Shown here: in pieces, positions 1-5,726 of the stretch | How the letters are laid out: each line of letters opens with the position of its first letter | Numbering within the stretch: the stretch's first letter is position 1 | DNA from: an uncultured bacterium | GTDB taxonomy: Bacteria; Chloroflexota; Anaerolineae; JACIWP01 | Assembly: GCA_903872005.1 (NCBI GenBank) | Contig: CAIQJD010000540.1 | Location: forward strand, 1-6,020 | Direction of reading: 5' to 3' | Length of the DNA stretch: 6,020 bases | The notes under the pieces: model-generated | Databases searched by the model: none | What the model saw: the letters and a program-made list of their open reading frames with translations, nothing else | What the model was told of the DNA's origin: nothing | Position numbers and translations under genes: made by a program

Positions 1-170
1 CCCGCCTTGGGCGTCTTGCCTGGATCCACGATGCCGGAGACATCCAACTCCATCTCCTGCAGGACCTTGTCGAGGTTCTCCCGCTCGACGAGGTTGAAGA
101 CGGTCGAATGGCTGAGCCTTTCCTTTATGTACGCAGCCAGGGTCGGATCTATCGAGGCCCGCTTGGGATT
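1..170 (-). CDS. Fragment of a CsgG-like domain protein (no start; runs off the window edge)
   Basis: Read on the minus strand, this stretch is open without a stop for 56 codons and continues past position 1. It is in a different frame from atpB, which overlaps its first bases. Its protein includes VFNLVERENLDKVLQEMELD followed by VSGIVDP and, near the edge, GKTPKAG. In CsgG-type domains (curli secretion pore, LpoB/FlgO-like and many envelope lipoproteins) a strand of the form F-x-VVEREnLdkVlxEqxL is followed by xSGlvDP and an alanine/glycine helix, and the match here is close. No ATG, GTG or TTG start with a ribosome site lies upstream in this frame, because that region is atpB coding sequence. 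The 5' part of the gene is therefore missing. The frame assignment is seen directly; the family is recognised from motif memory. It may be a real gene remnant left by a deletion or one half of an assembly chimera. Confidence 0.5.
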
Positions 171-961
171 TCGCCGGCGAAGACGTTGCCAAAGAGACGG
201 AAGGTGAAGGAGATGATCTTGGCCAGCTCGCTGATCGTCTCAAAGACGCCGACGAGGATTCCGACCACGCCATTGAACACGCCCTTCTTGAAGTTGATCG
301 AGACGAACTTACTGAAGTAGCGCAAGCCTAGCGAGCGCACCCCAAAGAATTGCGTCAGGACGACGGAGATGAGCGCCAACGCCAGCGGCAGGTTCAGGTC
401 CGTGGCCGCCGAGCGCAGGAATGGCTCTAATTCGTAGCCGGTCTCGCCTTCGGTGGCTTTGTTGCCGGTGAGGATTTCCACTTCGCCGGCCAGTGGCTGC
501 GCGACATAGCCAGCGCCCTCTTCTCCATGTACTTCTTTCAGAAAGCCGATGCTGCCATAGAGCGGCAGCATGCCCATCCAGTTGGAGACGAGGAGGAAGA
601 GGAAGATGGTCATGACGATGGGAAAGAAGCGCCGCGCCCACTTTACGCCGGCCATGTTCTCGACCAGCCCGTAGAAGGCTTCGACGACGGTTTCCATGAC
701 GTTTTGCAGGCCGGTGGGGATGAGGGTCATGCGCCGCGTGGCGAAGAAGGCCAGCACGATCAAGACGATCATGGAGATCCAGGAGGTGATCATCGTGTTG
801 GTGATGGCGAATCCGCCGATATGGAAGACCGGCTCTGCGGCGATCTTAATCGCCGGCAGGGCGACGCGCGGCACGATGAGAAAGAGCGCCACTATGAGCG
901 CAAGGACAAGGAGCGCGGGGAGCAAGACTTTCGGAGACAAGAGCTTCGAGCGCTTTGACAC
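149..961 (-). CDS. atpB: F0F1 ATP synthase subunit a, C-terminally truncated
   Basis: Subunit a is the membrane stator of F0 that forms the two proton half-channels against the c-ring. The 270-residue frame begins with a membrane segment (about residues 10-35). It continues with a second segment around 52-76, the family element GLQNVMETVVEAFYGLVEN, the helix FFPIVMTIFLFLLVSNWMG, the ATDLNLPLALAL element and the aMT4 signature FRLFGNVFAGE near the end. Arg255 in FRLFGN corresponds to the essential Arg210 of E. coli. After Glu264 the family pattern stops: IPSGPR and a stop follow instead of the last membrane hairpin (E. coli His245/Gln252 region). About 50-70 residues are therefore missing and the product should not work as written. 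The GTG start at 961 is supported by an AAGGAGGG ribosome site at 971-978. The c-subunit gene expected next in an atp operon is absent; a CsgG-like fragment follows instead. Confidence 0.9.
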   Translation of the reverse strand: MSKRSKLLSPKVLLPALLVLALIVALFLIVPRVALPAIKIAAEPVFHIGGFAITNTMITSWISMIVLIVLAFFATRRMTLIPTGLQNVMETVVEAFYGLVENMAGVKWARRFFPIVMTIFLFLLVSNWMGMLPLYGSIGFLKEVHGEEGAGYVAQPLAGEVEILTGNKATEGETGYELEPFLRSAATDLNLPLALALISVVLTQFFGVRSLGLRYFSKFVSINFKKGVFNGVVGILVGVFETISELAKIISFTFRLFGNVFAGEIPSGPR

Positions 962-4447: not shown

Positions 4448-4738
4448 CTATTCGCCGAAGATCGCTTTGACGCGGAAACAATCATCTTGCACGGCCGGCG
4501 CGTTGGCAAGGATATCCTCGCGGGGGAACGATGGCGCCGCCTGATCGGGGCGCAGCACTGTATCCAGGGGCAGCACCGAAGCGGTGGGGGGGATCGCCTC
4601 GGTATCGAGGCGCTGCAGCATGTCGGCGTAATCCAGGATCGCCGAGAGCGTCTCGCGGTAGTCTTCTTGCTCCGCGTCGGTCAGGCTCAATTTCGCCAGC
4701 TCCGCGATATGTTCCACTTGCTCCAAAGTCAGTTTCAT
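4448..4738 (-). CDS. gatC: Asp/Glu-tRNA(Asn/Gln) amidotransferase subunit C
   Basis: GatC is the small subunit that wraps around the GatA-GatB interface and stabilises the amidotransferase. The 96-residue length is typical. The N-terminus [19 protein letters not shown] is the family signature, followed by [16 protein letters not shown] and a C-terminal part with [15 protein letters not shown] and FRVKAIFGE that resembles the usual LR-D-x-x-x-xxAP...F-V-P end. The ATG at 4738 lacks a clear ribosome site, so translation may depend on a weak site or on the leader. It is the first gene of the gatC-gatA unit, with a promoter about 50 bases upstream, and is divergent from the PHP gene. Confidence 0.95.
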
Positions 4739-4787: not shown

Positions 4788-4816
4788 ATTATAGCATGGG
4801 GGCAAGGGGCTTACAA
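4788..4816 (-). promoter_or_regulatory. Sigma-70-type promoter for gatC-gatA and downstream genes
   Basis: On the minus strand TTGTAA (4811-4816) precedes TATAAT (4788-4793) by exactly 17 bases, and TGC sits directly before the -10. The transcript would start near 4781, leaving a leader of about 43 bases before the gatC ATG. The region is divergent with the PHP-gene promoter. Confidence 0.75.
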
Positions 4817-4847: not shown

Positions 4848-4886
4848 TTAACACAATGCTAAAGGGGCGTTAACAAGTTCCTAACA
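4848..4886 (+). promoter_or_regulatory. Putative Pho box: four TTAACA-like repeats every 11 bases
   Basis: The hexamers are TTAACA (4848-4853), CTAAAG (4859-4864), TTAACA (4870-4875) and CTAACA (4881-4886), each start exactly 11 bases after the last. Direct TTAACA-like repeats with 5-base gaps are the known binding site of the response regulator PhoP in Bacillus, and 11-base periodic repeats also make the E. coli PhoB box. The last repeat ends 9 bases before a -10 box, as in Pho-activated promoters where the box replaces the -35. The second repeat is the weakest. That a PhoP/PhoB-type regulator binds here is inferred; no pho regulator gene is in the window. Confidence 0.6.
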
Positions 4887-4895
4887 TCGGCGCGG

Positions 4896-4901
4896 TACAA
4901 T
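4896..4901 (+). promoter_or_regulatory. -10 box of the PHP-gene promoter
   Basis: TACAAT at 4896-4901 would start transcription near 4908, about 54 bases before the ATG at 4962. At 16-18 base spacing the upstream hexamers (such as ACAAGT) do not resemble TTGACA, and no TG precedes the -10. That suggests a promoter needing an activator, consistent with the repeats at 4848-4886. Confidence 0.55.
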
Positions 4902-4961: not shown

Positions 4962-5726
4962 ATGGGTCTGGCAGATCTTCACATTCATAGCATTCATAGC
5001 CCGGATGGCATCGCTTCCGTGCCGGCGATCCTGAAGCATGTGGCTCAGAATACCGACCTGGACGTCATCGCCATCACCGATCACAATAGCATGGCCGGCG
5101 TGCGCCAGGCCCTCGACCTGGCCCCCCGCTACGGCGTCGCGGTGATCCCCGGCTGCGAGGTCTCCACATCCGAGGGGCATCTCCTGGCGCTCTTCATCGA
5201 GCGGCTTGTGCCGGCCGGCCTTTCTCTGGCCCAGACCTTGCGCCGCGTGGCCGCGCAGGGCGGGCTGTGCGTGGCCCCGCACCCGCTGGCGCGCGGCTGT
5301 CACAGCTTGAGCCTCGACGCGATTCGGGCGGCCTTGCGGGATGTGTCCCTGGCGCGCACCCTCGCCGGCGTCGAGGTATACAATGGCGGCCTGATTTACA
5401 CCCGGCGCAACCTGGCCGTGGCCGCGCAGGCGCGCCAACTGCCGACCGCCGACATCGGCGCCAGCGACTCGCATGTCTTGCATACTATCGGACAGGGTTC
5501 AACGCACTTCGCCGGCAAGACCGCCGCCGACCTGCGCCGGACCCTGGAAATGGCGACTACGACCGCCCTGGGGGGCGTGGGACTGGGCGGCCTGGCCCTG
5601 TTGCGCTCCTGGGCGCCGCGCTATCTGTTACGCGCCCTGGGCTGGGCGCCCTGGAATTCTGACCCGCGGAGGCCGATTGAATATGCTCGCGTGCATCACA
5701 TCATGGCTCAGCGGCAACTTGTGTAG
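4962..5726 (+). CDS. PHP-domain metal-dependent phosphoesterase
   Basis: This 254-residue protein has the PHP-fold metal-binding motifs in order: DLHIHS (5-10, with H7 and H9), AITDHNS (38-43, with D40 and H41), GCEVST (64-69, with E66), GHLL (72-75), APHP (105-108, with H107) and GASDSH (166-171, with D169 and H171). Such proteins hydrolyse phosphate esters with a di- or trinuclear metal centre. The closest type is the YciV/TrpH family (nucleoside 3',5'-bisphosphate phosphatase or 5'-3' exoribonuclease), but the substrate cannot be fixed here. The C-terminal part beyond about 200 is Gly/Leu-rich and moderately hydrophobic, followed by Trp- and Arg-rich residues; this may be a membrane-associating tail. 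No signal peptide is seen, so it is probably cytoplasmic. AGGAAGGCGAGGG upstream of the ATG serves as a ribosome site. The Pho-box-like promoter suggests expression under phosphate limitation, which suits a phosphatase. Confidence 0.9.
   Translation: MGLADLHIHSIHSPDGIASVPAILKHVAQNTDLDVIAITDHNSMAGVRQALDLAPRYGVAVIPGCEVSTSEGHLLALFIERLVPAGLSLAQTLRRVAAQGGLCVAPHPLARGCHSLSLDAIRAALRDVSLARTLAGVEVYNGGLIYTRRNLAVAAQARQLPTADIGASDSHVLHTIGQGSTHFAGKTAADLRRTLEMATTTALGGVGLGGLALLRSWAPRYLLRALGWAPWNSDPRRPIEYARVHHIMAQRQLV

Follow-up and report, generated by a model that had tools for sequence, protein, structure and literature searches.

A predicted Pho box upstream of a PHP phosphoesterase gene in Chloroflexota

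The window, that is, the whole stretch of 6020 nucleotides that was analysed, has a GC content of 64%, and its recognisable genes encode an atpB-like protein, a sugar-nucleotidyltransferase, GatA, GatC and a PHP phosphoesterase. The PHP gene and the divergent gatC are separated by a region that carries an array of short direct repeats. The elements of this region are listed below; the pstS-only matrix mentioned there was built from 17 pstS promoters of related genomes.

4848–4853, plus strand: unit 1 of the putative Pho box, TTAACA (direct reading; 11-base period)
4859–4864, plus strand: unit 2, CTAAAG, a poorer match to the TTAACM of relatives
4870–4875, plus strand: unit 3, TTAACA (direct reading; pstS-only matrix)
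4881–4886, plus strand: unit 4, CTAACA, with 9 bases between its end and the −10 element
4896–4901, plus strand: −10 element of the PHP promoter, TACAAT (direct reading; TANNNT in relatives)
4848–4901, plus strand: whole operator-promoter, comprising the four units at their 11-base period, a 9-base gap and the −10 element; top site of the window with the pstS-only matrix
4962–5726, plus strand: PHP/PHP_C phosphoesterase of 254 aa (profile match to PF02811 and PF13263; conserved residues)
4788–4816, minus strand: gatC promoter TTGTAA-17-TATAAT (sigma-70 scan), with the −35 element TTGTAA at 4816–4811, 31 bases from the array
4448–4738, minus strand: divergent gatC, Glu-tRNA amidotransferase subunit C, judged to lie outside the system

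Array, promoter and PHP gene in the window

The preliminary description of this DNA had reported four hexamers at an exact 11-base period, the last of them 9 bases before TACAAT, and a distance of 31 bases from the array to the gatC −35 element. Direct reading agrees with the repeat layout (starts at 4848, 4859, 4870 and 4881), and the distance is correct. The same description held that the PHP promoter has neither a −35 element nor a TG extension. Consistent with this, no TG precedes the −10 TACAAT, and a sigma-70 scan did not report the PHP promoter; the sole promoter that it reported between 4700 and 6020 was that of the divergent gatC. Direct repeats at an 11-base period and their placement ∼9–10 bases before a −10 element that lacks a −35 are two marks of a Pho box, and both are present here. 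On the plus strand, the motif YTAAMR occurs four times in all 6020 bases, every time inside the array (4848–4886), and on the minus strand it occurs twice in the same 6020 bases. A four-hexamer pattern with up to three mismatches, which was composed after the site was known, was found in none of 200 dinucleotide shuffles. With the pstS-only matrix, position 4848 on the plus strand ranked first of 11,934 window positions, with 25.4 bits. The second-ranking position (4831 on the minus strand, 14.6 bits) overlaps the near-palindromic TTAA repeats of the array read backwards and has no −10 element. The predicted RNA fold of the 5′ end showed nothing beyond the ordinary. Elsewhere in the window, the atpB-like ORF (149–961, minus strand) covers just positions 1–160 of the 217 of ATP-synt_A, and its early end perhaps reflects a frameshift in the assembly or an atypical C-terminus.

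The 254-residue protein belongs to the PHP family according to its profile match (PF02811 and PF13263) and its conserved putative metal residues. H7, H9, D15, H41, E66, H107, D169 and H171 are invariant in an alignment of 30 sequences, and we take them to be the metal ligands, as in the PHP family. In a fold search, the predicted model (pLDDT 89.8) matched 3e38 and 2anu (PHP proteins without an assigned function), RNase AM, and Chromobacterium 2yb1, which is presumably a nucleoside 3′,5′-bisphosphate phosphatase (its PDB title reads amidohydrolase with AMP and phosphate). The PHP fold is common to the window protein, 2yb1 and RNase AM (7ug9, 9etk), but the identity to these structures is just 17–25% by fold search. 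With 40.9 of the 400 bits of the NCBIfam cut-off for the 3′,5′-nucleoside bisphosphate phosphatase equivalog and 30.9 of the 375 bits for the RNase RNM equivalog, the protein falls outside both. Inspection of the protein by eye revealed no obvious secretion signal.

The array before PHP and pstS genes of relatives

From named genome records, 58 PHP loci were obtained, of which the 31 closest (L001–L031) were used; the other 27 were distant and were set aside. Judging by their titles, 30 of the 31 loci presumably come from Anaerolineae or Chloroflexi-type organisms, and L028 has an Actinobacteria title. Among the matches listed, the organisms of the PHP homologues, where named, are Anaerolineaceae, Levilinea, Thermanaerothrix or Chloroflexi. 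An iterative matrix search covered 200 bases upstream of every PHP start and looked for three or four units in an 11-base register, followed by TANNNT at a gap of 8–10 bases, gap 9 being given a bonus of 1 over 8 and 10. This geometry fits 29 of the 32 PHP promoters (the window and the 31 orthologue loci), and the matrix converged on TTAAYM units; in the same search no array was found before the PHP genes of L025, L027 and L030. One of the loci with the box before PHP, L007, belongs to the cultured Leptolinea tardivitalis YMTK-2. Because the matrix had been fitted to these same upstream regions, two checks free of fitting were added. Pairs of TTAA[CT][ACT] at 11, 22 or 33 bases number 20 in the 32 PHP upstream regions, compared with a mean of 0.22 and a maximum of 3 in 1000 mononucleotide shuffles. 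In the 17 pstS upstream regions, which had been picked beforehand by the matrix, there are 15 such pairs, with 0.14 expected. When the PHP arrays were located by their repeats alone, TANNNT stood at gap 9 in 15 of 29, the second commonest gap being 1 (n = 4); gap 9 was also found in 12 of the 17 pstS arrays, a set located with a matrix that includes this gap. When the 29 PHP promoters were aligned by their fitted boxes, column identity was 0.58 in the repeats, 0.31 in the spacers and 0.29 in the upstream flanks (391 of 406 promoter pairs; near-identical flanks excluded).

The pstS-only matrix provided a comparison in the other direction. With it, 26 of the 32 PHP upstream regions scored above 300 random segments of their own locus (25.4 for the window, against a control maximum of −2.9), and the other six failed to beat every control segment. 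The genome scan lists further sites in L001 and L017, so that the controls that outscore the PHP upstream region in these two loci may themselves be boxes. Among 59 new genomes, 20 PHP homologues were found at E ≤ 1e-30; the array is present before each of the five closest (at least 265 bits), with scores above all 300 shuffles, and of the other 15 only L227 has it. The 14 homologues without an array all score below 253 bits. The box therefore tracks this orthologous group and not PHP proteins in general. The genome of L025 (G202) contains a second PHP gene (L272), which shares 53% identity with that of L001, has a matrix array 65 bases upstream and is followed by SurE; L025 thus seems to be a box-free paralogue. 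Conservation before orthologues of the PHP gene, one of the checks proposed in the preliminary description, is thus seen both in the 29 fitted promoters and in the five closest homologues of the new genomes, with the proviso that the counts are not independent, because the orthologues share ancestry with the training set, as some of the new genomes may do too.

For the pst loci, 28 of the 31 relatives' genomes were searched for pstB, phoU and PBP_like_2. The three genomes excluded at that stage (those of L025, L027 and L030) are those whose fetched PHP gene has no array, and they were searched later with the site model alone. The PHP-trained matrix found the array before the first pstS in 18 of 19 phoU-linked loci, the exception being L131. 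In 17 of the 18 it beat all 200 mononucleotide shuffles, and in L129, where the array is weak, it beat 199. In the second, paralogous PBP loci, which have no phoU nearby, the array was present in 1 of 17 (L104). These counts omit L093, L116, L121 and L128, for which no pairing with a PBP gene was made, as well as two additional PBP matches (L118, L124) that fall within the ORF of the first match. In each of the three genomes searched later (G202, G203 and G204), a box precedes pstS, with SurE just upstream of the box (L267–L269). In G204 the GT-B-like gene found behind PHP in many relatives also has a box before it (L270), and two more box matches (L273, L274) lie near none of the proteins searched.

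Occurrence before pst genes of the same group of organisms is a further mark of a Pho box that is found in the relatives, as is the presence of a regulator of the PhoB/PhoP class with a kinase. A PhoB-like regulator gene lies upstream of pstS in 10 of the 13 pst loci checked, and an ORF of kinase size (584–588 codons) lies between regulator and pstS in 7 of 9. The regulators score below the NCBIfam PhoB cut-offs. The nearest solved chain to that of L119 (L119:1501–2217) is RegX3, with a score below the curated cut-offs, and the L119 ORF, the only one profiled, matches WalK/PnpS/PhoR kinase models, also below the curated cut-offs. In L233, a PhoB-like regulator, a 407-codon ORF, PHP, SurE, pstS, pstB and phoU follow one another on one strand, and in L234 the order is GT-B-like gene, PHP, SurE, pstS, pstB and phoU. 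In 19 of 31 loci, the gene immediately behind PHP (e.g. L001:3797–4825) encodes a conserved protein of ∼343 residues with no confident family, for which no counterpart was found in the window. According to its predicted model (pLDDT 82.8), this protein is similar to GT-B folds, among them UDP-GlcNAc 2-epimerase and TagF; the L010 copy is broken, and in L270 the gene has its own box.

Genome-wide matches and the genes behind them

A sequence-only site model was built from 36 sites (20 PHP and 16 pst) and used on the 28 genomes, with up to 150 candidates scored per genome and a threshold of E ≤ 0.01. Among the scored candidates there were 54 matches, which were classified by hand, and 28 of them are training sites, so that just 28 of the 36 training sites were recovered. 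The 26 other matches precede 6 pstS, 5 PHP, 1 pstB-phoU, 4 SurE and 2 PhoU_div-Pit genes, together with 2 arsenate-reductase-like (LMWPc), 2 GGDEF-HD, 1 SBP_bac_6 transporter, 1 CAAX-protease-like and 2 nameless genes. The match G011:C211:937 was left without annotation. In 59 held-out genomes of the class, the model gave 29 matches in 22 genomes at E ≤ 0.01, and the reversed model gave none in the same 59 genomes and one in G007. Of these matches, 28 were classified (G081:C48 had no locus): pstS lies downstream in 13 (in L202 a possible ORF of 85 residues intervenes), an ABC gene followed by pstS in L200, PHP in 2, a transporter of the SBP_bac_6 type in 2 and a glycosyltransferase in 1; the remaining 9 precede other genes, for few of which a phosphate link was found. 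The enrichment before phosphate genes that the preliminary description had put forward as a check thus holds in the relatives (18 of 19 phoU-linked against 1 of 17 paralogous loci) and recurs outside the training genomes, where 13 of 28 match loci precede pstS. A draw of 121 genomes across the phylum, some of which overlap earlier sets, was scanned with the forward model alone and yielded 32 genomes with matches. Only the 26 new loci were classified; 17 of them have pstS downstream, and the order in L265 is box, PHP, SurE. Other searches returned little: a strict two-unit pattern gave 3 matches in the 28 genomes, fewer than its backwards control, a single-protein scan of genome contigs gave 204 stretches, none of them a relative, a scan of viral contigs gave nothing useful, and a plasmid search gave 17 records, every one with less than 60% identity.

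SurE genes with a box were found as matches of the model in L162, L163, L164 and L174 and as matches of the matrix in L105 and L113, and SurE directly adjoins PHP or pstS in L233, L234, L265, L267–L269 and L272. The SurE nucleotidase thus appears to be a second new member of the Pho regulon. PhoU_div-Pit and arsenate-reductase-like genes of relatives also carry the box.

Several less certain associations were also observed. LMWPc genes stand behind box matches in L169 and L172 (E ≤ 0.01) and in L175 (E 0.012), and that of L169 matches arsenate-reductase models, with scores that stay under the cut-offs. GGDEF-HD proteins, which perhaps act in cyclic-di-GMP turnover, are encoded behind box matches in five genomes (L168 and L170 at E ≤ 0.01; L162, L163 and L164 at E 0.07–0.12). 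In seven small genomes of 1.4–1.9 Mb (L241, L243, L245, L247, L248, L253 and L264), a box is followed by a short, similar-looking ORF and by pstS at ∼640–710 bases. In the two that were profiled (L243 and L247), the ORF encodes an MGS-like (methylglyoxal synthase) domain protein, which is perhaps a phosphate-freeing bypass. A GPP34 (Golgi phosphoprotein 3-like) gene, L166:3542–4256, follows PHP at a distance of two genes, behind another box match (E 0.04). Related 11-base arrays precede genes of HlyD-type, DUF2680-like or small exported proteins in L176, L178, L179, L180, L198 and L206. Those of L176, L178, L179 and L180 have E above 0.01, and a response regulator lies near some of them; all these related arrays are perhaps operators of a paralogous OmpR-type regulator.

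Interpretation and comparison with known Pho boxes

On sequence grounds, we class the array as a Pho box of the PhoB/PhoP/SphR type. The sequences show directly how the array is built, that it recurs before PHP genes and also precedes pstS and further phosphate genes, and that a regulator gene adjoins pst; on this basis we infer with high confidence that a PhoB/RegX3-like regulator would switch on the PHP gene in phosphate shortage. When phosphate is short, such a response regulator would bind the 11-base direct repeats head-to-tail, substitute for the missing −35 contact and recruit RNA polymerase to TACAAT, and this recruitment would turn on the phosphoesterase. In the cytoplasm, the enzyme would most likely release phosphate from small nucleotide-like phosphoesters; the SurE nucleotidase gene is adjacent in several relatives. 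Because SurE keeps company with PHP, nucleotide phosphates are our best guess for the substrate. The PHP enzyme is very probably part of the phosphate-shortage response, as its array matches the switch before the phosphate-uptake genes of related Chloroflexota. The membership in the phosphate-starvation response that had been predicted from the window is supported by the sharing with pstS and by the conservation before PHP in relatives, and the PHP phosphoesterase can be regarded as a well-supported predicted member of the Pho regulon in Chloroflexota.

An origin of the array as chance AT-rich promoter sequence scarcely merits belief. AT content is higher in promoters than in genes, and AT-rich DNA often contains TTAA, but the plus strand of this GC-rich window has no further YTAAMR, and the conservation together with the held-out enrichment (29 matches, against 0 for the reversed model of the same composition) in effect excludes chance; the counts of TTAA[CT][ACT] pairs against shuffles and the held-out scan against the reversed model led us to reject it. 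The array lies close enough to the gatC −35 element for the preliminary description to have suggested an effect on that gene, and the repeats could in principle control the divergent gatC promoter instead of PHP. Against this, a single orientation of the array is kept, mostly with the 9-base gap to the −10 element on the PHP side, and tblastn found neither gatC nor gatA in the fetched flanks (up to 3 kb) of PHP in the 31 relatives. The suggestion is therefore without support, and we rejected control of gatC, whose likelihood we consider negligible.

A different OmpR-family regulator with a similar 11-base repeat might also bind the array, and the PHP gene would then respond to another signal. 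The weaker matches before HlyD-type and DUF2680-like genes (L176, L178, L179 and L180), some with a response regulator nearby, point in that direction, as do box matches before response regulators (L203, L204) and the occurrence of two or more PhoB-like regulators (E ≤ 1e-60) in each of the 28 genomes. However, the PHP-site and pstS-site matrices find each other's sites in both directions, pstS is the largest single class of matches in the new genomes, and in L233 the PHP gene lies between the regulator gene and pstS, which makes a different regulator improbable. Control of PHP by the phosphate-responsive regulator thus remains the preferred reading. More speculatively, and with rather less than even confidence, a Chloroflexota Pho regulon with SphR-like TTAACM boxes might include a cytoplasmic phosphate-recycling pair, in which PHP would trim nucleoside bisphosphates or short oligonucleotides and SurE would strip the resulting nucleotides. 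If so, the cell's own RNA would serve as a phosphate source during starvation. The analysis provides a testable Pho-box definition for Chloroflexota and brings both SurE and this family of PHP phosphoesterases under predicted phosphate control; this narrows the search for the substrate of the PHP enzymes and hints at how phosphate-poor anaerobes may recycle phosphate.

The preliminary description had matched the array to the geometry of PhoP/PhoB sites. This holds, and the hexamer itself is nearest to the cyanobacterial SphR box (PMC1906773). In the available part of that paper, the SphR box has the consensus CTTAACCT, is made up of three or more 8-base repeats in tandem, separated by 3-base linkers (an 11-base period), and stands before sphX, pstS and phoA; the consensus is very near the (C)TTAACM units of the Chloroflexota arrays, and PHP is not among the box genes named there (PMC1906773). 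The Chloroflexota system differs from SphR in its phylum and in the frequent degeneracy of the unit that precedes the last one by 11 bases. The array hexamer is also near the PhoP boxes of Bacillus subtilis, which are built of TT(A/C/T)ACA-like units; PhoP is a Firmicutes regulator, unlike the Chloroflexota system, and to our knowledge PHP is not among its known targets. The repeat layout of the B. subtilis boxes, with an 11-base period, is the same, and 11-base direct repeats form the Pho boxes of several groups; the main text of the paper concerned contains neither 'chloroflex' nor 'php' (PMC4415409). The E. coli PhoB box likewise consists of 11-base direct repeats, located ∼10 bases upstream of a TAN3T/A −10 element, and shares with the Chloroflexota array the repeats and the placement before the −10; its motif, however, is different, being CTGTCAT in one paper and CTGTACTA in the other (PMC1906773, PMC4415409).

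A link between PHP and low phosphate had been described as not standard for the family, which needs qualification, as partial precedents exist in cyanobacteria. The transcript of the Synechococcus PCC 7002 PHP gene A0549 was altered at 24 h of phosphorus starvation, and growth of an A0549-A0550 knock-down, a double one that includes purF, was 91% of wild type in phosphorus shortage; the available sections mention no Pho box for A0549 (PMC11358556). In Nodularia, a PHP phosphoesterase is placed in the section on phosphate acquisition (PMC3610870). These cyanobacterial genes are likened to the window gene by PHP family only, with no orthology implied. Titles and abstract openings of the open-licence literature yielded no Chloroflexota Pho box or Pho-regulated PHP gene. 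Since published Pho boxes and partial PHP precedents exist, the operator is of a known kind; within the literature searched, the definition of the Chloroflexota box and the placement of PHP and SurE genes under it appear to be new.
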